A model generated the notes under the pieces. The model saw only the letters and a list, made by a program, of their open reading frames with translations, was not told the origin of the DNA and searched no databases. A stretch of DNA of 64,000 nt, taken from positions 930,001 to 994,000 of the forward strand of contig NZ_VJXX01000001.1 in NCBI RefSeq assembly GCF_009377195.2, given 5' to 3'. This DNA comes from Arthrobacter bussei (GTDB lineage Bacteria > Actinomycetota > Actinomycetes > Actinomycetales > Micrococcaceae). Below are positions 11,904-21,936 of the stretch, piece by piece. The first letter of the stretch is position 1. The number at the start of each line of letters is the position of its first letter. The position numbers were made by a program, and so were the translations under genes.

Positions 11904-13292
11904 TCAGCCGGCGTTCACGGTCCTGATGGCGTGTTCGAGCACGTCCAGGCCGTCCGCCAGCAGTTCGTCGGTGATGACGAGCGGCGGCAGCAGGCGGATG
12001 ACGTTCCCGTAGGTGCCGCAGGTCAGGATGATGACACCCTCGCGCAGGCACTGTGCCGCGATGGCCTTCGTCGCGTCGGCGTTGGGCATCCGACCGCCGC
12101 CGGGCTCCACGAACTCGATGGCCAGCATGGCTCCGCGTCCGCGCAGCTCCCCGACGATGCTGCCGTCCCCGAGATCCGTCTGCAGTGCGGCGAACCGCTC
12201 GGTGACCTGCGCCTCGATGCGGCGGGCCCTGCCCGCGAGGTCCTGCTCCTTCATGGTCCCGATGGCGCCGAGTGCAGCGGCGCACGCCACCGGATTACCG
12301 CCGTAGGTACCGCCGAGTCCGCCGGCGTGGACGGCGTCGAGCAGGTCCGCCCGGCCGGTGATGGCAGACAGGGGCATGCCGCCGGCGATCCCCTTCGCCA
12401 TCGTGATGATGTCCGGGACCACGCCCTCGTGGTTCACGGCGAACCACTCGCCCGTCCGGCAGAAACCGGACTGGACCTCGTCCGCGATGAAGACGACACC
12501 GTTGGCCTTCGCCCAGTCCGCCAGGGCGGGCAGGAAGCCCTCGGCGGGGACGATGAATCCACCCTCGCCCTGCACGGGCTCGATGATGATCGCCGCGACC
12601 GACTCCGCGCCGATCTGCTTCTCGATCATCGTGATGGCCCGCTGCGCCGCTTCGGGGCCCGTGATCGACGGGTTCTCCTCACGGAAGGGATAGCTCATCG
12701 GCACGCGGTAGATCTCGGGCGCGAAGGGGCCGAAGTCGGTCTTGTACGGCATCGACTTCGCCGTGAGGGCCATCGTGAGATTGGTGCGGCCGTGGTACGC
12801 GTGGTCGAAGGCGACGACCGCGTTGCGTCCGGTGGCCAGGCGTGCCACCTTGACGGCGTTCTCCACGGCCTCGGCACCGGAGTTGAACAGGACGGTGCGC
12901 TTCTCGAAGTCGCCGGGCGTCAGGGCTGCCAGCTGCTCCGCGACGGCGATGTAGCCCTCGTAGGGCGTCACCATGAAGCAGGTGTGCGTGAAGTGCTCCA
13001 CCTGCTCCTTGACGGCGCCGACCACGGCCGGGTCGGACGCACCGACGCTCGTCACGGCGATGCCGGAGCCGAGATCGATGAAGGAGTTGCCGTCGACGTC
13101 GTGGATGATCCCGCCGTCGGCGTCCGCCACGTAGACGGGCACGCCGGAGGCGACGCCCTTGGCGACGACGGCCGCGCGGCGGGCGGCGAGCTCGGTGGAC
13201 CGGGGGCCGGGGAAGTCCCCGGTGATGCGGCGCTTCTGCTCGAGCCTGAAGCTCGGGGCGGTGATCCCGGGAGTGGTTGCGAAGATGGTCAT
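11904..13292 (-). CDS. gabT: 4-aminobutyrate aminotransferase
   Basis: 462-residue PLP enzyme of the class III aminotransferases, transferring the amino group of GABA to 2-oxoglutarate to give succinate semialdehyde. The glycine-rich GAEAVENAVKVAR, the Asp of FIADEVQSGFCRTG and the PLP lysine K300 in TMAKGIAGGMPL are all present. Start ATG 13292 follows AAAGGA. It lies 28 bp after the aldehyde dehydrogenase gene on the same strand, and a strong terminator follows. With that gene and the putrescine oxidase it completes putrescine degradation to succinate semialdehyde; a succinate semialdehyde dehydrogenase is not seen in the window. Confidence 0.95.
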   Translation of the reverse strand: MTIFATTPGITAPSFRLEQKRRITGDFPGPRSTELAARRAAVVAKGVASGVPVYVADADGGIIHDVDGNSFIDLGSGIAVTSVGASDPAVVGAVKEQVEHFTHTCFMVTPYEGYIAVAEQLAALTPGDFEKRTVLFNSGAEAVENAVKVARLATGRNAVVAFDHAYHGRTNLTMALTAKSMPYKTDFGPFAPEIYRVPMSYPFREENPSITGPEAAQRAITMIEKQIGAESVAAIIIEPVQGEGGFIVPAEGFLPALADWAKANGVVFIADEVQSGFCRTGEWFAVNHEGVVPDIITMAKGIAGGMPLSAITGRADLLDAVHAGGLGGTYGGNPVACAAALGAIGTMKEQDLAGRARRIEAQVTERFAALQTDLGDGSIVGELRGRGAMLAIEFVEPGGGRMPNADATKAIAAQCLREGVIILTCGTYGNVIRLLPPLVITDELLADGLDVLEHAIRTVNAG

Positions 13293-13320
13293 CGGGGAGG
13301 GTCCTTTGTCTCGGGGACGA

Positions 13321-14757
13321 TCAGGCGTCCAGCACGCTCATGACGTGCTTGATGCGGGTGTAGTCCTCCACGCCGTACATGGAGAGGTCCTTGCCGTAGC
13401 CGGAGTTCTTGAAGCCGCCGTGCGGCATCTCGGCCGTGAGCATGATGTGCGTGTTGATCCAGACGGCGCCGAAGTCGAGGTCGCGGGAGACACGCATCGC
13501 GGTGCCGTGATCCGTGGTCCACACGCTGGAGGCGAGCGCGTAGTCCACGCCGTTGGCGAGCTCCAGCGCCTCCTCCTCGGTGGCGAAGGTCTGCACGGTG
13601 AGGATGGGACCGAAGGTCTCCTGCTGCACCACCGGATCGTCCTGGCGCGCACCGGTGATGATGGTGGGCTCGAAGAAGTAGCCCTTCTCCCCCGCGCGCT
13701 TGCCGCCGGTCGCGATGCTGCAGTGTGCCGGCAGGCCTTCGATGACGGAGGTGACCGCGTTGAAGTGGTTGATGTTGTTGAGCGGCCCGAAGTAGTTCTC
13801 GGAGTCGTCGGCGCTGCCCGTGCGCAGGGTCGCCGTGTGCTCGACCATCGCGGCCACGAGATCGTCGTGTGCCTCCTCCTGGACCAGCACGCGGGTGATC
13901 GCGGTGCAGTCCTGGCCGGCGTTGAAGAAGGCGAACTCGGTGATGGCCTCCGCCGTCTTCTTCAGGTCCGCATCGGCGAAGACGACGGCGGGAGCCTTGC
14001 CGCCGAGCTCGAGGTGGGCCCGCTTGAGGCCCTTCGCAGCGCTGGAGGCGACGGCGATGCCCGCACGGACGGACCCGGTGATGGACACCAGCCCCGGCAC
14101 GGGATGCTCGATCATCGCCGCGCCGGTCTCACCGGTCCCGAGCACCACGTTCAGGACGCCGTCGGGCAGGATGCCCTGGGTCAGGCGTGCCAGCACGAGG
14201 GTCGACTCGGGCGTGGTGTCACTGGGCTTCAGCACCACCGTGTTGCCGGCCGCGAGCGCCGGACCGATCTTCCAGATGGCCATGAGGAAGGGATAGTTCC
14301 AGGGGGCGACCTGCGCGACGACGCCGATGGGCTCGCGGCGCACGTAGGAGGTGTGGCCCTCCATGTACTCGCCGGCGGACTTGCCCTCGAGGATGCGCGC
14401 GGCGCCGGCGAAGAACCGCAGCTGGTCAGCGCCCACGGCCACCTCTTCGGCGGCGATCATCTCGCGCACCTGCCCGGTGTTGCGGTGCTGCGCCTCGACG
14501 AGCTCGTCGCTGGCGGCCTCGACGGCGTCGGCGAGCTTCAGCAGCATCAGCTGGCGCTGGCTCGGGGTGGTCCGCTTCCAGGTGGTGAAGGCACGCCGGG
14601 CGGCCTGCATCGCGTCGTCGACGTCGGCCGGGGTGGAGACGGGCGACTGCGCCACGACCTCGCCGTTGGTCGGGTTGACGATGTCGAGGAGCTGATCACG
14701 AGCGCCGGCGGGCACCACGAAGTGTCCGTCGATGTAGTTCTGAAGGGTCTCGGCCAC
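13321..14757 (-). CDS. patD: gamma-aminobutyraldehyde dehydrogenase
   Basis: 478-residue NAD(P)-dependent aldehyde dehydrogenase. The motifs are complete: NYPFLMAIWKIGPALAAGN, general base Glu in HLELGGKAP, nucleophile C284 in AGQDCTAITR, and ETFGPIL. The sequence resembles the 4-aminobutyraldehyde dehydrogenases (PatD/YdcW), which make GABA from the product of putrescine oxidase; adjacency to gabT supports this. Betaine-aldehyde dehydrogenase activity is the main alternative, as the families are close. It begins the patD-gabT operon and is divergent from a PucR-type regulator. Confidence 0.9.
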   Translation of the reverse strand: MAETLQNYIDGHFVVPAGARDQLLDIVNPTNGEVVAQSPVSTPADVDDAMQAARRAFTTWKRTTPSQRQLMLLKLADAVEAASDELVEAQHRNTGQVREMIAAEEVAVGADQLRFFAGAARILEGKSAGEYMEGHTSYVRREPIGVVAQVAPWNYPFLMAIWKIGPALAAGNTVVLKPSDTTPESTLVLARLTQGILPDGVLNVVLGTGETGAAMIEHPVPGLVSITGSVRAGIAVASSAAKGLKRAHLELGGKAPAVVFADADLKKTAEAITEFAFFNAGQDCTAITRVLVQEEAHDDLVAAMVEHTATLRTGSADDSENYFGPLNNINHFNAVTSVIEGLPAHCSIATGGKRAGEKGYFFEPTIITGARQDDPVVQQETFGPILTVQTFATEEEALELANGVDYALASSVWTTDHGTAMRVSRDLDFGAVWINTHIMLTAEMPHGGFKNSGYGKDLSMYGVEDYTRIKHVMSVLDA

Positions 14758-14879
14758 GCTGCAGCGCCTTTCACGGGGTGTCTTCGCACGCTCGTGCCGG
14801 TGCCGGTCGACGTGCGCGTTTCAGCAGAACGCTACCGGCGGTCAGTAACCCACGCCACGTGTTGTTGCACAGTAAGCAA

Positions 14880-14900
14880 ACCTGTGTGCCGTGCACAGGT
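14880..14900. promoter_or_regulatory. inverted repeat in patD/pucR divergent promoter
   Basis: ACCTGTG (14880-14886) and CACAGGT (14894-14900) are perfect 7-bp arms with a 7-base spacer, 25 bp before the PucR-type ATG. A second small dyad (TTGC ... GCAA) lies just upstream at about 14864-14878. Position and symmetry suggest the PucR-type regulator's own operator. Confidence 0.5.
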
Positions 14901-14924
14901 ACAACTGTCCCCTACGCTGGTGGC

Positions 14925-16457
14925 ATGGCCATCACGCTGCCCGATCTCCTCGCGGACCCCGCACTGGGCCTCGTGGCCGAGGGAGCGGCCCGGCCACCCG
15001 CACAGCCCATCCAGTGGGTGGCGGTGACGGAACTGGAGGACCCCCGGCCGTTCCTGAACGGCGCCGAGGTGGTCCTCACCACCGGTGTCCGCCTGAAGAC
15101 GGGCGCTGCACAACGGGCCTTCGTGCGACGGGCGCATGAGGCCGGCGCCCTGGCGATCGGCTTCGGGGTGGGCCTGACGCACCGGCGGATTCCCGCCGCC
15201 GTGCTCGCCGAGGCGGACGCCGTCGGACTCGCCGCCTTCAGCGTCCCCTACGAGGTCCCCTTCATCGCGATTGGCAAGAAGGTGGCGGATGCTCTCTCGG
15301 CCGCGCAGTACGCGGGTCTCGAGGAACTCCTCGAGGGCCACGCCGTCCTCGCGTCCGCCCTCCTCGGAGCTGGTGGCCTCGCAGCGCTCCTCGGCGAGCT
15401 GACCCGGATGCTCGGTACCGACGTCGCACTCTTCCAGTACGGGACGCGCATCGCGGACGCTCGACGGACAGGCGCCCGGCGCCCGCCGGCGGCGTCACCA
15501 CGCGCCGCCGCCGCGGACCGCGCAGCCGGAGCTGCGGACGCTGATGCGTCAGGTGCCGACTCCGACGACGCGGCTTCCCCGGTCCCGACGACCTGGCATC
15601 GCGTGCCCATCGCCACCGGCCTGAAGGACCGCTGCACCCTCGCGATCGCGGAGCCCTACGCGCACGCCGCCGTCGTCGACTACGCGCAGAGCCTCATCTC
15701 GGTGGAACTCACCAACCAGGCGCGCAACCGGACCGGCGCCCGCACGGCGACCGGCCAGTTGCTGGAGGACGTGGTGCGGGGGACGCTCGCCGGGCCCGAG
15801 GCCGCGGCGCGGCTCGCCAGCTCGGGGATCGACACCACCGCACGGCACGGGATGCTGATCGTCGACGTGGCGTCGGGGCAGCGACGCAGCCTCAGGACGC
15901 TGCCGCTGCCCTACGGCTGGGACGGTGTCTCGGCCGGGGTTGTCGACGAGCGCCTGGTCCTCGTGCTGCCCGCTCCGGCGAGCCATGATCCCGCGCCGCT
16001 CGACCCGGCGGAGCTCAGCCGGTATCTGCACGGTGCCGGCCTGACGGCCCGTATCGGTGTCGGCGGCGCCTACGCGCAGCCCACGGGCCTGCGCTGGAGC
16101 TACTTCGAGGCACGGGAGGCCCTCCAGCGCGGGCAGGCGGTCAACCGTGCCGACCGCCTCAGCCTGACGTCGCTGCTGATGTCCAGCGCCGACGTACCCC
16201 TCGCCGACCTCGCCGCCGAGACCCTCAGGCCCCTCGAGGACTTCGACGAGGCACACGGGGCGGGTCTCGTCACGACGCTCCAGCGGTACCTCGACCTCGA
16301 CGGCTCGGTGGCCGCCGTCGCCGCCGACCTCGCGCTCCACCGCAACACGATCCGCTACCGGCTCCAGCAGGTGGTCACCCTGACCGGGTACGACGCCGCG
16401 GTCACGGCCGATCGCGTCCACCTCTACCTGGCGCTCAGGGTCAGGGCGCTGGGCTGA
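14925..16457 (+). CDS. PucR-family transcriptional regulator
   Basis: 510-residue regulator. The N-terminal PucR domain (about residues 5-125, including LTTGVRLKTGAAQRAFVRRAHEAGALAIGFGVG) is followed by an Ala-rich low-complexity segment near 185-215, and the C-terminal PucR-type helix-turn-helix is RYLDLDGSVAAVAADLALHRNTIRYRLQQV near residue 460. ATG 14925 gives the standard N-terminus; the open frame upstream is non-coding. Such proteins activate nitrogen-compound catabolic operons, for example GABA genes in other bacteria. Being divergent from patD-gabT, it is probably their activator. Confidence 0.9.
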   Translation: MAITLPDLLADPALGLVAEGAARPPAQPIQWVAVTELEDPRPFLNGAEVVLTTGVRLKTGAAQRAFVRRAHEAGALAIGFGVGLTHRRIPAAVLAEADAVGLAAFSVPYEVPFIAIGKKVADALSAAQYAGLEELLEGHAVLASALLGAGGLAALLGELTRMLGTDVALFQYGTRIADARRTGARRPPAASPRAAAADRAAGAADADASGADSDDAASPVPTTWHRVPIATGLKDRCTLAIAEPYAHAAVVDYAQSLISVELTNQARNRTGARTATGQLLEDVVRGTLAGPEAAARLASSGIDTTARHGMLIVDVASGQRRSLRTLPLPYGWDGVSAGVVDERLVLVLPAPASHDPAPLDPAELSRYLHGAGLTARIGVGGAYAQPTGLRWSYFEAREALQRGQAVNRADRLSLTSLLMSSADVPLADLAAETLRPLEDFDEAHGAGLVTTLQRYLDLDGSVAAVAADLALHRNTIRYRLQQVVTLTGYDAAVTADRVHLYLALRVRALG

Positions 16458-16598: not shown

Positions 16599-17843
16599 AT
16601 GTCACTGCTTCAGGCCGACGAGCCACACCTGCGGGAAGTTGCCAGGCGGGCGGTCCTGCAGGACTACCGGCTGCCCTACGGCGAGGCAGGGGGTGCTCCG
16701 GTCCAGGAGGTCGACTACGAGACGCCGCCGGAACTCCTCAACCTCGTGAAGCTGGCCGTGCGCGTCAGCGCGATGGACATGGGTGTCATCAACATCATCA
16801 CGGCGGACCAGCAGCACCAGATCGCCGCGGTCGGGGTGGAGGCGTCGGTGTGCTCCCGCGACGACTCCATGTGCTCGAAGGTCTTCACGTCCGGGTCCAT
16901 CACGGCAGTCCCGGATGCCTCCCTTGATGCGCGCTTCGCCGACAACCCCTTCGTCAACGGGGGAATCGCCGAGGTCCGCTCCTACGCCTCCGTGCCGCTC
17001 CTGACCGGGTCCGGCTACGCGCTCGGCTCGCTGTGCGTGTTCTCCCCACGCGTGCTGGCGCTCGGGCCCGAGCAGCGTGAGGGCCTCGAGATCCTCGCGC
17101 GTCAGGTCGTGGAGGTCCTGGAGCTGCAGTACAAGACCAGACAGCTCCTCGAGGCGCTCGAGGTGGTGCGTCGCAGCAACGAGGACCTGGCCGGCTTCGC
17201 GGCCCGCGTCAGCCATGACCTCAAGAATCCGCTGACGGCGATCCTCGGCTACACGGAACTGAGTGAACAGGACACGGACGTCCCGGCGGCGGGACCGGCG
17301 GCACGGTACTTCAGCATCATCCGGGGTAGCGCGAGCCGCATGCTGACCACGGTCGAGGAGGTGCTGGAGTTCTCGCGCATCGGTGGGGCGATCACCCGGC
17401 GGCCCGTACGTCTGGCCACCATGATGAACGCCGTCCTGCAGGACGTCCTCCCGCTGAGCAGCGCCTCCGACGCGCTCGTCACGGTGCAGGATGCCCACCT
17501 GTTCGTCGACCGAGCCCAGGTCATCGCCCTGCTGCAGAACCTCGTGTCCAACGCGATCAAGTACTCGACGCCGGGCAGTCCGCCGCGCGTCGAGGTGGTC
17601 GCGAGCCTCGGCGAGACGCAGGTCCTGCGGATCATCGACCACGGCAAGGGCATCGACCGGGAGGATCGTACACGCGTCCTCGAGCCCCTCGTCCGCCTCC
17701 AGCGCGACGGCGACCCGGCCGGCAGCGGCATCGGCCTCGCGACCTGTGCCCGGATCGCGCGGGCGCACGAGGGCTCGATCAGCATCACGGCGACACCCGG
17801 CGGCGGGACCACGGTGACGGTCGACCTGGGTCCTGCCGCCTGA
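16599..17843 (+). CDS. GAF-domain sensor histidine kinase
   Basis: 414-residue soluble kinase. A GAF domain fills about residues 45-175 (with SVCSRDDSMCSKVFTSGSI, containing paired cysteines), then a short linker leads to HisKA with phospho-acceptor H206 in RVSHDLKNPLTAILGYTE, and an HATPase domain with NLVSNAIKYS and GSGIGLATCARIARAHEG. There is no transmembrane segment, so it senses a cytoplasmic signal. No cognate receiver follows directly; the nearest is the receiver-phosphatase protein 2.1 kb downstream. It may feed that partner-switching module, which is inference. Confidence 0.9.
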   Translation: MSLLQADEPHLREVARRAVLQDYRLPYGEAGGAPVQEVDYETPPELLNLVKLAVRVSAMDMGVINIITADQQHQIAAVGVEASVCSRDDSMCSKVFTSGSITAVPDASLDARFADNPFVNGGIAEVRSYASVPLLTGSGYALGSLCVFSPRVLALGPEQREGLEILARQVVEVLELQYKTRQLLEALEVVRRSNEDLAGFAARVSHDLKNPLTAILGYTELSEQDTDVPAAGPAARYFSIIRGSASRMLTTVEEVLEFSRIGGAITRRPVRLATMMNAVLQDVLPLSSASDALVTVQDAHLFVDRAQVIALLQNLVSNAIKYSTPGSPPRVEVVASLGETQVLRIIDHGKGIDREDRTRVLEPLVRLQRDGDPAGSGIGLATCARIARAHEGSISITATPGGGTTVTVDLGPAA

Positions 17844-17907
17844 AGCCCGAGGGCTCGCCTGTGCCCTGCGGTCTGAGACCCGCGGGCACGGGCCTGGGGC
17901 CGCAGCC

Positions 17908-18000
17908 CGAGGCCCGAGCGCCGCATTCCGAGGCCCGAGCGCCGTGGGCTACGGGCTACGGGCTAGGGGCTACGGGCTACGGGCTACGGGCTACGGGCTC
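17908..18000. repeat. tandem repeats: 21-mer x2 and heptamer GGGCTAC x7
   Basis: CGAGGCCCGAGCGCCG recurs at 17908 and 17929 as part of a 21-bp duplication. From 17946 the heptamer GGGCTAC runs in seven full copies (one variant, GGGCTAG) and a partial eighth to 18000. The tract occupies most of the 231-bp space between two convergent kinase genes; nothing else is visible there. Confidence 0.92.
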
Positions 18001-18074
18001 AACCTGTCCGGCGAGGGCGATCCTCGGAACCCGCGGCCCGACACTCACGGCCGGGATCCTCGGTCGTCACCGCC

Positions 18075-19760
18075 CTAGTACTCCTGCGCCTGCAGTTCCT
18101 GGTCCTGCTCGGCCCGGGCGAGCGGCAGCCGGAAGGTGAACGTGGACCCCTGGCCCTCGACGCTCCGGCAGCTGATCGTCCCGCCGTGCCGCTCGACGAT
18201 CGCCTTCGAGATGGCGAGGCCCAGGCCCACGCCCGGAATGGCCGCATTGCGTGCGGCCGAGGTCCGGAAGAACTTCGAGAACACACCGCGCAGTTCCTCG
18301 GCCGACATACCGCTGCCCTCGTCGGTCACGCTGCACTCCACCGCACCGTCGATCTCCGCCGCCGCGATCGTCACACGCCCCCCCGCCGGAGAGTACTTGA
18401 CGGCGTTCGAGAGCAGGTTGTCGAGGACCTGGCCGATCCGCGGTGCGTCACAGAGCGCCACGAGGTCACGCCCGGTGAGGTCCTCGAACCGGACGAGCGG
18501 ATTGCCGTTGCGCTCCTGCGCCGCCCCGACCCGCTCCCTCACCAGGGAGGAGAAGTCGGTGGGTACGGGCCTGATCTCCGGTGTGCCCTCCGCCGTGGAC
18601 AGCAGGTCCACCACGAGCTTGTGCAGGCGCTCGGAGTTGCGGGACACCACCTCCAGGCCGGAGGCGACGTCGGGCTCGAGGTCCGGTATGCCGGTCAGCA
18701 ACTCGAGATATCCGCGAATGGCGGTCAGCGGCGTCCGCAGTTCGTGGGACACCGTTGCCACGAACTCGTCCTTGGCGTTGAGGGCGCGCACGAGTTCCGT
18801 CACGTCGTTGAACGTCACCACGGATCCCTCGCGTGTGCCGTCCTGGTTGGTCATCAGGCGCGACGACGTCGACAGCACGCGCTGGTTCGGGAGTTCGCCC
18901 CACCAGAGGAGGTAGTCGGAGAACACCTGGCCCTCGGCGGCGCGGCGCGTCGGGCGCCGGTTCTCCGGCATCGGGGACGTCCCGTCCTGCTGGAAGATGC
19001 GGAGGTCCTCCTCCGCGGTGTCCGAGGCCGTGCCCGCGAGGGCCCGGAACTGCTCGAGCTTGCGGTTGGTCAGGAGTGGGCGTCCGCGCTCGTCGACGGC
19101 GATGAGGCCGATGTCCACGCTGTTGACCACGGTGTCGAGCAGGCGCTCGCGCCGGGCGCTCTCCTCCAGCAGCTGCTGCAGCGCCCGGTCCTTCTCCTCG
19201 ACGACGTCCTGCTGCGCCATCATGCTGGCGGTCATCACCCGGATGGTGACGCCGATCGCGAGCATGATGAACGGGAGCAGGAAGGACTGCGTCAGGGACT
19301 GGGAGGTGACCGCGGTGTCCGTCACGAACACGGGCACCCAGACGACACCGAGCGCCGCGAGGAAACCGGCGGTGAGCGCCGCTCGGGGATACAGCCCCGA
19401 GGCGGCCAGCCAGATCACGGGGAAGACGGTGAGGAGCCCCACACCGGTGATCACCGTTCCCGCGCCGTAGCGCATGAGGCCGATCGGGATGAAGTCCAGG
19501 AGCGGGATGATCAGGAAACTCGCATGCGGCAGGCGGTCCCACGGCACGAGGAAGCACAGCGCCAGGAGGACGGCCTGGAGAGCGACACCGATGAGGAAGG
19601 GCCGGCTCTCGAACAGATCAGGGTGGAACAGGGATCCGCCGACGAGGATCAGGATGACGGTCAGCGAGAGGGGCAGCTGACTGAGGACGACCCGGGCGCG
19701 CAGGGTCAACTCGTGGAACTGTCGCGTATTGAGCGTCAGGTAGGAGAGCACCCTGTCCAT
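18075..19760 (-). CDS. membrane sensor histidine kinase with PAS domain
   Basis: About 561 residues. Six hydrophobic helices occupy roughly residues 25-190, followed by a linker, a PAS-like domain (NSVDIGLIAVDERGRPLLTNRKLEQF), HisKA with H339 in TVSHELRTPLTAIRGYLELL, and HATPase with DNLLSNAVKYSPAGG and GVGLGLAISKAIVERHGG. Start ATG 19760 was chosen for its upstream GAGGGGAAG; in-frame starts at 19811 (ATG) and 19847 (GTG) would add a basic leader. It is divergent from the receiver-phosphatase gene, separated by about 226 bp, and is the best candidate to phosphorylate it. Confidence 0.88.
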   Translation of the reverse strand: MDRVLSYLTLNTRQFHELTLRARVVLSQLPLSLTVILILVGGSLFHPDLFESRPFLIGVALQAVLLALCFLVPWDRLPHASFLIIPLLDFIPIGLMRYGAGTVITGVGLLTVFPVIWLAASGLYPRAALTAGFLAALGVVWVPVFVTDTAVTSQSLTQSFLLPFIMLAIGVTIRVMTASMMAQQDVVEEKDRALQQLLEESARRERLLDTVVNSVDIGLIAVDERGRPLLTNRKLEQFRALAGTASDTAEEDLRIFQQDGTSPMPENRRPTRRAAEGQVFSDYLLWWGELPNQRVLSTSSRLMTNQDGTREGSVVTFNDVTELVRALNAKDEFVATVSHELRTPLTAIRGYLELLTGIPDLEPDVASGLEVVSRNSERLHKLVVDLLSTAEGTPEIRPVPTDFSSLVRERVGAAQERNGNPLVRFEDLTGRDLVALCDAPRIGQVLDNLLSNAVKYSPAGGRVTIAAAEIDGAVECSVTDEGSGMSAEELRGVFSKFFRTSAARNAAIPGVGLGLAISKAIVERHGGTISCRSVEGQGSTFTFRLPLARAEQDQELQAQEY

Positions 19761-19986
19761 CCGGCGGCCACTTCCCCTCGTGCGTCGTCGAGCATCATTC
19801 CGTCGCGGCATGACGGCGCCGATGCGCTCAGGCGCGTCGGCCTCCACAGACTAGCGCGGTGGACCGTCGATTTCGGAGGGCGGAGAGCGGCCCCGGCCTC
19901 AAGATCACATCAAGATCGGCGCAACAACCCGAGCAACATGGCGAAGGCCCGGCGCGCGTGCCGGGCAGCGCGCGCCGTAGCGTTTA

Positions 19987-21096
19987 ATGAAGTCCATGAC
20001 TGTCTCCCCGGAGCCCCGCCGTGCACTGGTTGTCGAGGACGACGTCGACATCCGGGGCCTGCTCGTCCAGATCCTGAAGCGCGAGGGTTTCACGGTGACC
20101 GAGGCCGCCACCGCCCGCGAAGGCCTGGAGAAGGCGCGCGCCGGGGCCGATCTCATCACCCTCGATCTCAACCTCCCCGACGGCGATGGTGTCGAGGTGT
20201 GCCGAGAGGTCCGCGAGTTCTCCGACGCGTACATCCTCATGATCACCGCCCGCACCGATGAGATCGAGCGACTCACGGGCCTCGAGACCGGTGCCGACGA
20301 CTACATCAGCAAACCGTTCAGCCCGCGCGAACTCGTGGCGCGGATCAATTCGCTGTTCCGCCGCCAGAGCCGCCAGGCCGCAGCGGACGTCGCGCACGCC
20401 GACGAGCGCCAGCGTGCCGCGGAAGTCCAGCAGAACCTGCTCCCCCGGGACCGCCTGGCGCTCCCGGACTACGAGCTCGCCGGACGCTTCAGGCCGTCCC
20501 GCAGCGTCGGTGGCGATTTCTACGACTGGTACGGCACGGCCGACGGCCTGCACCTCACCGTCGCGGACGCCATGGGCAAGGGGATGGGCGCCGCCCTCGT
20601 CGCGGCGACGGTGCGCGCGATCATGCGCTCGGTGGCCACACAGCCGAACCTCGAGACCGCCTTCGCGACGGCGGCCCGTGCCACCGAGGCCGACCTCGAG
20701 CAGACGAGTTCCTTCGTCACCCTGTTCCATGGGCGCCTCGACGCCGCGACCGGCGTCGTCGGGTACGTGGACGCCGGCCATGGACTGGCCCTCCACGTCA
20801 TGGCGGACGGCAGCGCCGAGCGGCTTCCCTCGGCGGGGCCACCCGTCGGCGCGTGGCCCGACCAGACCTGGGCGGCGGGAACCGTGCAGCTCGAGCCGGG
20901 GGACGCACTCGCGATCGTGAGCGACGGCCTGCTGGACATCTACGAGACGGTGGAGGAGTTCACGGAAGCCGTCGCCGGTGTCGTCACCGCCTCCGCGGGG
21001 GTGGAGGAGGCCTGCGCCGCCCTGCTCGACATGGCGGACGTCCCGGAGGTGGCGGACGACGTCACCGTCGTCATCCTCCAGCGCTCGCCCGCCTAG
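19987..21096 (+). CDS. response regulator fused to PP2C-type (SpoIIE/RsbU) phosphatase
   Basis: 369 residues. Receiver domain at about 12-130 with acidic pair EDD, phospho-acceptor D60 in ITLDLNLPDGDG and the conserved Lys of SKPFSP; then a short coiled linker (DERQRAAEVQQNLLPRD) and a SpoIIE-type phosphatase domain with GGDFYDW, DAMGKGMGAAL, DAGHGLAL and VADDVTVVIL metal-binding elements. This architecture turns a kinase signal into dephosphorylation of a STAS protein, and exactly such a gene follows. Either ATG 19987 or 19996 may start translation; neither has a ribosome binding site, and TAGCGT just upstream suggests a leaderless or near-leaderless message. Confidence 0.92.
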   Translation: MKSMTVSPEPRRALVVEDDVDIRGLLVQILKREGFTVTEAATAREGLEKARAGADLITLDLNLPDGDGVEVCREVREFSDAYILMITARTDEIERLTGLETGADDYISKPFSPRELVARINSLFRRQSRQAAADVAHADERQRAAEVQQNLLPRDRLALPDYELAGRFRPSRSVGGDFYDWYGTADGLHLTVADAMGKGMGAALVAATVRAIMRSVATQPNLETAFATAARATEADLEQTSSFVTLFHGRLDAATGVVGYVDAGHGLALHVMADGSAERLPSAGPPVGAWPDQTWAAGTVQLEPGDALAIVSDGLLDIYETVEEFTEAVAGVVTASAGVEEACAALLDMADVPEVADDVTVVILQRSPA

Positions 21097-21149
21097 CCGG
21101 CGCCCCCACGATCGACCACCACGGACAGCACCGCCGGAAGGACGTACAG

Positions 21150-21482
21150 ATGGAATTCAGCACGCAGGACAAGGGCCGCTACACCGAGGTCACGCCGAGC
21201 GGACGGCTCAACATGGTCGCTGCGCCGAAGCTCCGCGAGGTCATCGACGGCGTCGTCAGCGCCGGTGGCCGGCGGATCGTCGTGAATCTCGCCGAGACCA
21301 CCTTCATGGACTCGTCCGGGCTCGGAGCGCTGATCGGCTGCCTCAAACTGGCGCGGCAGTCCGGTGGGGACCTGCGGATCGCCGCCGTGCAGCCGCAGGT
21401 CAACATGGTGCTGGAACTCACCAGCATGCACCGTGTGCTGACGCCCCACGCCACGGCCGAGCAAGCGTTCCCCAATGACTGA
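21150..21482 (+). CDS. STAS-domain anti-sigma factor antagonist (RsbV-like)
   Basis: 110-residue STAS protein. The phosphorylation loop is TTFMDSSGLGALIG with Ser55/Ser56 as the expected kinase site. In the RsbV/SpoIIAA family the unphosphorylated form sequesters the RsbW kinase. GGAAGGA precedes ATG 21150. It sits 53 bp after the phosphatase gene and its stop overlaps the start of the kinase gene, consistent with a phosphatase-STAS-kinase operon. Confidence 0.93.
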   Translation: MEFSTQDKGRYTEVTPSGRLNMVAAPKLREVIDGVVSAGGRRIVVNLAETTFMDSSGLGALIGCLKLARQSGGDLRIAAVQPQVNMVLELTSMHRVLTPHATAEQAFPND

Positions 21483-21936
21483 CAACCTGGCGCGACGCGT
21501 CCTCGAGGAACCGGCCACCGAGCAGGCGATCGAGGATCTGCACGGCGTGCTGGACCAACTGTGGCTGGACGCCGCCTTCGTGCCCCAGCTGGACCAGATG
21601 GCTTTCACGACCGCCGTCATCGAATCCGCAAGCAACGTCGTGCAGCACGGTGTCCCCTCACCCGGCGCCACCCTCCATCTCGGCGTCGAACTCACGGTGT
21701 CCGCGGAGCGATTGAAGGCGGTGATCAGCGAGATCGGGGCCGCGCCGCACGATCCCGTGCCCGACCTCGATGACCTGCCCGAGCCCTCGCTGCCCGACGA
21801 GGACGCCCTGCTGGAGGACTACGACGAGTCCGGTCGCGGTCTGTCGATGATCCGTGCCCTGGTCACGACGGTGACCGTGGAACGCCAGGGTGACACCAAC
21901 GTGTGGGTCCTCTCCAGGGATTCCGGCCAGGACTGA
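21475..21936 (+). CDS. RsbW-like anti-sigma factor serine kinase
   Basis: 153 residues with a GHKL ATPase fold. The N-box is FTTAVIESASNVVQHG with E50 and N54, and the G1-like loop is DESGRGLSMIRALV. An acidic loop (PDLDDLPEPSLPDEDALLEDYD) sits between the two, longer than in RsbW of Bacillus. Start ATG 21475 overlaps the STAS stop by eight bases, implying coupling. RsbW proteins phosphorylate their STAS partner and bind a sigma factor; no sigma gene is nearby, so the final target is either remote or not a sigma factor. Confidence 0.88.
   Translation: MTDNLARRVLEEPATEQAIEDLHGVLDQLWLDAAFVPQLDQMAFTTAVIESASNVVQHGVPSPGATLHLGVELTVSAERLKAVISEIGAAPHDPVPDLDDLPEPSLPDEDALLEDYDESGRGLSMIRALVTTVTVERQGDTNVWVLSRDSGQD

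Follow-up and report, generated by a model that had tools for sequence, protein, structure and literature searches.

The window analysed here is a stretch of 64,000 nt from an Arthrobacter bussei genome (RefSeq assembly GCF_009377195.2, contig NZ_VJXX01000001.1, positions 930,001 to 994,000), and the subject is a group of signalling genes in it that resembles a partner switch. The genome, designated G000, is 3.63 Mb in 42 contigs and 99 % complete, and its nearest named relatives belong to Arthrobacter, Pseudarthrobacter and Paenarthrobacter. The five adjacent genes described in the original prediction, two histidine kinases, a receiver-PP2C phosphatase, a STAS protein and an RsbW/SpoIIAB-like protein of the GHKL class, are all present at exactly the coordinates predicted, as judged from open reading frames (ORFs) and Pfam matches (Table 1). 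The last three form a unit on the + strand, in which the start of the RsbW-like gene overlaps the end of the STAS gene by 8 nt, and the membrane kinase gene is divergent from this operon. Because the PP2C, STAS and RsbW genes stand together in many genera, their grouping is not due to chance.

Table 1. Features of the switch locus (positions are those of the window)
Feature	Position	Strand	Domains and remarks
GAF histidine kinase, 414 aa	16599-17843	+	GAF, HisKA, HATPase_c (Pfam); candidate input
Membrane histidine kinase, 590 aa	18075-19847	-	HisKA, HATPase_c (Pfam); six hydrophobic segments (Kyte-Doolittle); candidate input
Receiver-PP2C, 369 aa, RsbU-like phosphatase	19987-21096	+	Response_reg and SpoIIE (Pfam)
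Gap, 53 nt	21097-21149		Position of a BcsA-like gene (~650 aa) in 4/4 named relatives with complete loci
STAS protein, single domain, 110 aa	21150-21482	+	PF01740, 61 bits; start picked by eye
RsbW/SpoIIAB-like GHKL protein, 153 aa	21475-21936	+	HATPase_c_2, PF13581, 38.4 bits

The window protein with a PP2C domain (PF07228, 109.8 bits; metal-binding motif patterns intact) gives the genome's only near-full-length match to SpoIIE. A partial match on contig C38, in a 331-aa ORF, was rejected as a second switch phosphatase, because inspection by eye suggests a PPM-type phosphatase of the ordinary kind. The STAS protein matches TIGR00377 above the cut-off of that model (78.9 bits) and includes the phospho-acceptor motif DSSGL; the two other STAS matches in the genome occupy frames that are 593 and 619 codons long. 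There are seven PF13581 matches above the cut-off, and that in the window is the only one in a small open frame. The other six were set aside as RsbW-like candidates by size alone (open frames of 404-709 codons). A Kyte-Doolittle scan found no hydrophobic (transmembrane) segment in the GAF kinase, indicating a soluble protein. The second kinase had been called a membrane PAS kinase, and the membrane and kinase parts of that description stand, but the PAS domain is found only below threshold (PAS_4, E 0.062). The kinase domains, the receiver, the PP2C domain, the DSSGL motif and the RsbW/SpoIIAB-like fold fit the predicted conversion of histidine-aspartate signalling into partner switching.

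The named relatives have a further gene in this operon, which is ordered PP2C, GT2, STAS, RsbW. All four named relatives whose loci are complete (L024, L025, L026 and L028; a fifth, L027, is cut by a contig end) contain a gene of approximately 650 codons between the PP2C and STAS genes, and in some relatives it overlaps the PP2C gene. It encodes a family 2 glycosyltransferase (GT2) of the cellulose synthase type. As in BcsA (7lby, 4hg6), the GT2 core aligns in two pieces and the TED and QxxRW motifs are retained. Against Escherichia coli BcsA (7lby), profile positions 3-243 and 396-631 align with chain positions 196-447 and 449-685. Directly ahead of the TED motif is an insert of approximately 150 residues that BcsA does not have, the flanking 7lby positions 447 and 449 being neighbours. 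The RREAL-to-TED span measures 158-175 residues in each of the 65 GT2 rows, which places the insert in every one, and QxxRW is found in 64 of the 65. A further difference from BcsA is that no PilZ domain was matched at E<=0.001 in the three GT2 proteins scanned. Passages of PMC10374906 describe control of BcsA by cyclic di-GMP (c-di-GMP) via PilZ and report that Sinorhizobium BgsA binds c-di-GMP although it has no PilZ domain. The missing PilZ domain thus fits control by something other than c-di-GMP and is not proof of it, and by analogy with BgsA the GT2 may still respond to c-di-GMP.

The distribution of the switch and the GT2 was examined using thresholds of E<=1e-6 (family) and 1e-10 (genus) for RsbW, E<=1e-120 (1e-80 in the order) for GT2 and E<=1e-40 for SigB/F/G-like sigma factors (SigBFG); A1 was built from 5 sequences, that of the window among them, and A4 from 4. 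Among 295 genomes of the family, RsbW was found in 67 and GT2 in 62, with both in 61, RsbW alone in 6, GT2 alone in 1 and neither in 227 (phi 0.93). At the 88 RsbW-bearing loci, a STAS gene is adjacent in 77, a GT2 gene lies within 700 bp on the same strand in 63 and a PP2C gene is in the stretch in 77. Several genomes contribute more than one of these loci, L024 and L167 are identical in sequence, and G197 is scored as unlinked in this count, yet its two pieces end contigs. In G289, which has a GT2 and no RsbW match, a divergent STAS gene (70 bits, no DSSGL) adjoins the GT2 gene.

Within the genus, RsbW and GT2 occur in the same 25 of 38 genomes, and in 13 of these (G000, G116, G130, G222, G248, G264, G271, G278, G285, G612, G619, G621 and G622) they are unlinked, i.e. 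on different contigs or >1 Mb apart, with the PP2C gene directly next to the STAS gene. These are the informative genomes, because linked genes travel together anyway; all 13 have PP2C, STAS and RsbW, and all 13 have a GT2 elsewhere. When 1070 predicted genes (called using a heuristic based on GC content at third codon positions, GC3) were clustered, the only ones of the best 28 clusters to include more than four genus labels were those of RsbW, STAS and GT2, one of ABC transporters (10 genomes) and a merged one of signalling genes. Among the recurring neighbours in these 28 clusters, neither a sigma factor nor a transcription-factor family was prominent.

The association extends beyond the family. 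Among 347 genomes of the order, a GT2 was found in 20, of which 11 are outside the family. Nine of the 11 have a full-length match (families f3, f6, f8, f18 and f19), and at all nine of these loci STAS and RsbW genes are adjacent and a PP2C gene is in the stretch. In G508 and G546 (L258 and L259), the GT2 match is split into two and does not cover the whole insert; no RsbW match was found in either, and a weak STAS-like gene without DSSGL (35 and 41 bits) is located right after the GT2 gene. A second GT2 copy in G063, with the insert also partly unmatched, had neither an RsbW nor a STAS-like match. GH26-like genes were observed near all three of the GT2s with a partly unmatched insert. A second switch copy (STAS, RsbW and PP2C) was seen at L262 (G268:C1:117000-131000), near a GT2 gene with an internal stop.

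The GT2s fall into two classes, and the GT2 of the window genome (C29:72147-74093), which is solitary and retains the DDG, DAD, TED and QRLRW catalytic motifs, belongs to class II. A maximum likelihood tree was built from 65 proteins; L208 (GT2 in two ORFs; score filter) and extra copies in G050, G268 and G006 were left out, and the GT2s of G063 and G137, the loci outside the family and four unlinked genomes added later are also outside this tree. The nine solitary GT2s it includes form a single clade (100/100) within class II, and the five other rows of the class II clade adjoin divergent STAS and RsbW genes. When STAS and RsbW sequences from 77 loci were concatenated for a FastTree tree (midpoint root; several of its supports are low), these nine genomes had their switches in class I, beside those of g1 genomes that still have a class I GT2 in the operon. 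As each of the nine has a single RsbW match, each genome therefore combines a class I switch that has no GT2 with a class II GT2 that has no switch of its own. The simplest reading of the two trees is that the switch changed its GT2 partner in the lineage of the window. G271 has an additional solitary GT2, which is of class I.

Directly after the solitary GT2 gene of G000 (C29; L140:9518-12106, - strand) is a fusion gene that encodes a GH26-like domain and an OpgC-type acyltransferase, with a marginal Pfam match to GH26 (20.6 versus 20.2 bits) and a strong one to OpgC. Such a fusion adjoins the solitary GT2 of class II in 8 of the 9 genomes and in 4 of 4 further ones, i.e. in 12 of 13; no match was found in the G278 stretch. 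This suggests that the product may be an acylated beta-glycan.

The predicted model of the RsbW-like protein (mean confidence, pLDDT, 76.7) is closest to the SpoIIAB and RsbW structures. Of 20 Foldseek matches at E<=0.001, 18 are chains from SpoIIAB, RsbV/RsbW or SigF-system entries and two are from LvrC; RsbW 6m36 was reached by sequence only at E 0.0034. The Glu and Asn of the N box and the G2 box are retained in the window protein, and the G1-box Asp is replaced by Glu. That Asp is present in 15 of 72 aligned RsbW-like proteins, all of class II, and is otherwise Glu (window) or Ala (others). As 8 of 9 proteins from outside the family retain it, its loss is probably a derived state; the exception is L249, where the GT2 is class I-like. 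The DSSGL motif of the STAS protein is kept in 81 of 82, and because this serine is conserved some kinase should still phosphorylate it.

The long acidic loop that the original prediction had pointed out is confirmed as a lid that separates the G1 box from the G2 box by 26 residues, where most of the 72 aligned relatives have 12-17. It is 24-28 residues in the nine unlinked genomes and 25 in the other four, and 12-17 in the remaining aligned sequences, except those of genus g4. The long lid thus coincides with the change of GT2, with the g4 lids a partial exception. The g4 loci L151, L198 and L199 are switches without a GT2, with RsbW lids of 21-24 residues.

Our reading is that a partner switch driven by a two-component system has as its output a membrane polysaccharide synthase, instead of a sigma factor, and we assign it a probability of roughly 0.57. 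The surmise that the output may be unusual is thereby given a candidate, the BcsA-like GT2 co-inherited with the switch. The reading starts from what is established at the level of sequence, namely the gene content, the operon of the relatives, the co-inheritance even of unlinked genes and the weak tracking of a sigma factor. Control of the GT2 by the switch would probably be post-translational, and we infer that a switch protein binds the synthase directly. By the RsbU/RsbV/RsbW paradigm, a histidine kinase would phosphorylate the receiver and so activate the PP2C domain, which would then dephosphorylate the STAS serine. Unphosphorylated STAS protein would bind the RsbW-like protein and strip it from the synthase, leaving the synthase active, and re-phosphorylation of the STAS protein would reset the switch. 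The docking site on the GT2 may be the insert just before the TED motif. The lineage of the window would have lost the GT2 of its operon, and its switch would most likely now serve the solitary GT2 of the other class on C29. A more specific version, which is doubtful as a whole, has an RsbW-like protein that is no longer a normal ATP-dependent serine kinase and that holds the PilZ-less GT2 off via the insert until unphosphorylated STAS protein removes it, replacing control by c-di-GMP; in the window clade the switch would have been re-paired with a GT2 of the other class and the long acidic lid would have evolved alongside.

Several observations weigh against this reading. Co-occurrence of linked genes is in part trivial, and the Fisher p-values of the family and genus tests ignore ancestry, which inflates them. 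Since the gene arrangement is common to all 13 unlinked genomes, they look like one event and not 13 independent proofs. Genomes G034, G102 and G133 of g4 retain PP2C, STAS and RsbW and have no GT2, which is possibly a third output; RsbW is also found without a GT2 in G121 and G175, and G217 (L180) has an operon remnant in which PP2C is left together with RsbW in shortened form, with neither a STAS nor a GT2 match at the locus and no GT2 in the genome. From these GT2-less switches it follows that other outputs or decay exist. The window RsbW-like protein scores 21 bits with the NCBIfam RsbW model, for which the cut-off is 145, and the absence of the G1-box Asp from 57 of the 72 aligned proteins makes the kinase of the STAS protein uncertain. 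The predicted structure of the GT2 (4 rows) is poor (pLDDT 42); it shows most of the insert as helices, but the fold of the insert is not established by it and the model was not used. Finally, the window genome does encode a SigB/F/G-like sigma factor, and across the family such factors show a weak association with the switch (p 3e-7, uncorrected for ancestry).

This sigma factor is central to the alternative that the locus is an ordinary SigB/SigF switch acting at a distance, in which the RsbW-like protein is the anti-sigma factor of the C9:281012-281668 product and the GT2 merely a target gene that is in the operon in relatives. That no sigma gene is near, as originally stated, is correct for the window, since all 14 Sigma70_r2 matches in G000 lie outside it, but not genome-wide. 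The proposed search for a SigB/SigF-type gene elsewhere found a single SigB/F/G-like match, on the same contig and approximately 668 kb from the switch, with TIGR02980 as the best NCBIfam model (196 bits, below the curated cut-off of 234). With one such gene, no anti-sigma gene recognised beside it by eye and one stand-alone switch, the genome would accommodate a distant pairing, and SigF-anti-sigma complexes are among the fold matches. Of the 295 family genomes, 89 have SigBFG, 38 of them with RsbW and 51 without it; RsbW occurs without SigBFG in 29 (phi 0.31). However, 25 of the 61 genomes with both switch and GT2 have no SigBFG at the threshold used, and in the genus there is no association (20/25 switch genomes versus 9/13 others, p 0.69). 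No cognate SigB/F-type sigma factor thus travels with the switch, as tested with the SigB/F/G-like class, and we consider this alternative unlikely.

It is less likely again that the switch acts on transcription of the GT2 and other genes via an extracytoplasmic function (ECF) sigma factor, the housekeeping sigma factor or a non-sigma factor. The 13 further Sigma70_r2 matches provide candidates, and a passage of a review on STAS proteins (PMC8256260) reports switching on the housekeeping sigma factor in Chlamydia. However, the clustering described above brought out no prominent regulator family, and the place of the GT2 gene within the operon, overlapping the PP2C gene in some relatives, is odd for a distant target. 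That the window module is a decaying relic, without an output since the loss of its GT2, seems very unlikely. The missing operon GT2 and the G217 remnant would suit decay, as would the PP2C of two unlinked genomes, which is split in two frames in G621 and has VAGDFYD in place of VGGDFYD in G285. However, the complete trio in all 13 unlinked genomes, each with a GT2 elsewhere, and intact PP2C and receiver motifs in 8 of the 9 unlinked genomes checked by pattern, argue against this.

The locus resembles the RsbU-RsbV-RsbW and SpoIIE-SpoIIAA-SpoIIAB systems of Bacillus in its PP2C phosphatase, its STAS protein with a DSSGL serine and its small GHKL protein, the model of which is nearest to SpoIIAB and RsbW structures. 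It differs from them in that the operon has no sigma gene, the GT2 is a conserved fourth gene in relatives, the G1 Asp is replaced in this class and the receiver is on the phosphatase. In the HsbR-HsbA system of Pseudomonas, a receiver-PP2C protein likewise works with a STAS protein, and we know of no GT2 in that operon. PMC6482189 links this partner switch, too, to biofilm, but the output reported there is through the sigma factor RpoS.

SypE-SypA of Vibrio fischeri and HmpU-HmpV-HmpW of Nostoc are also partner-switch proteins tied to polysaccharide or biofilm in the passages of PMC8256260 that treat them, where the targets of SypA and HmpV are given as unknown; a passage of PMC4517449 states that the mechanism of SypA is still to be determined. 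Unlike the phosphatase here, SypE is a dual kinase/phosphatase, and the passages name no BcsA-like partner for Syp or Hmp, whereas here the GT2 gene is inside the operon of relatives. No description of a partner switch with a cellulose-synthase-like gene was found in open-access titles and the openings of abstracts, which is weak evidence of absence. Comparative genomics here names a concrete candidate target, one membrane synthase in soil-type actinobacteria, where switches of the SypA/HmpV type have none known, and suggests that some bacteria turn polysaccharide production on and off by partner switches. If the reading is correct, partner switching extends from transcription to the control of enzymes, and a BcsA-like synthase can be regulated without a PilZ domain.

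For the inputs, a relative of the membrane kinase is present at 27 of the 88 RsbW-bearing loci and a relative of the GAF kinase at 12. Every one of the 13 unlinked genomes has both, and the GAF kinase relative is at the same position in each. The candidate two-kinase input to the switch rests on this recurrence at related loci. The phosphatases differ in their sensor domains. Those of class I mostly have a receiver, and among those scanned L144 and L146 are SpoIIE alone and L249 has a GAF domain; all five class II phosphatases scanned have a GAF domain, and a receiver is found in that of L151 (g4). At some loci other than that of G621, too, the PP2C gene is read in two ORFs. Immediately before the GAF kinase gene (window positions 11904-16457) are aminotransferase-like and aldehyde-dehydrogenase-like ORFs, identified by eye, and a gene for a PucR-type regulator, which is a recurring one, seen in 12 genomes of the genus.

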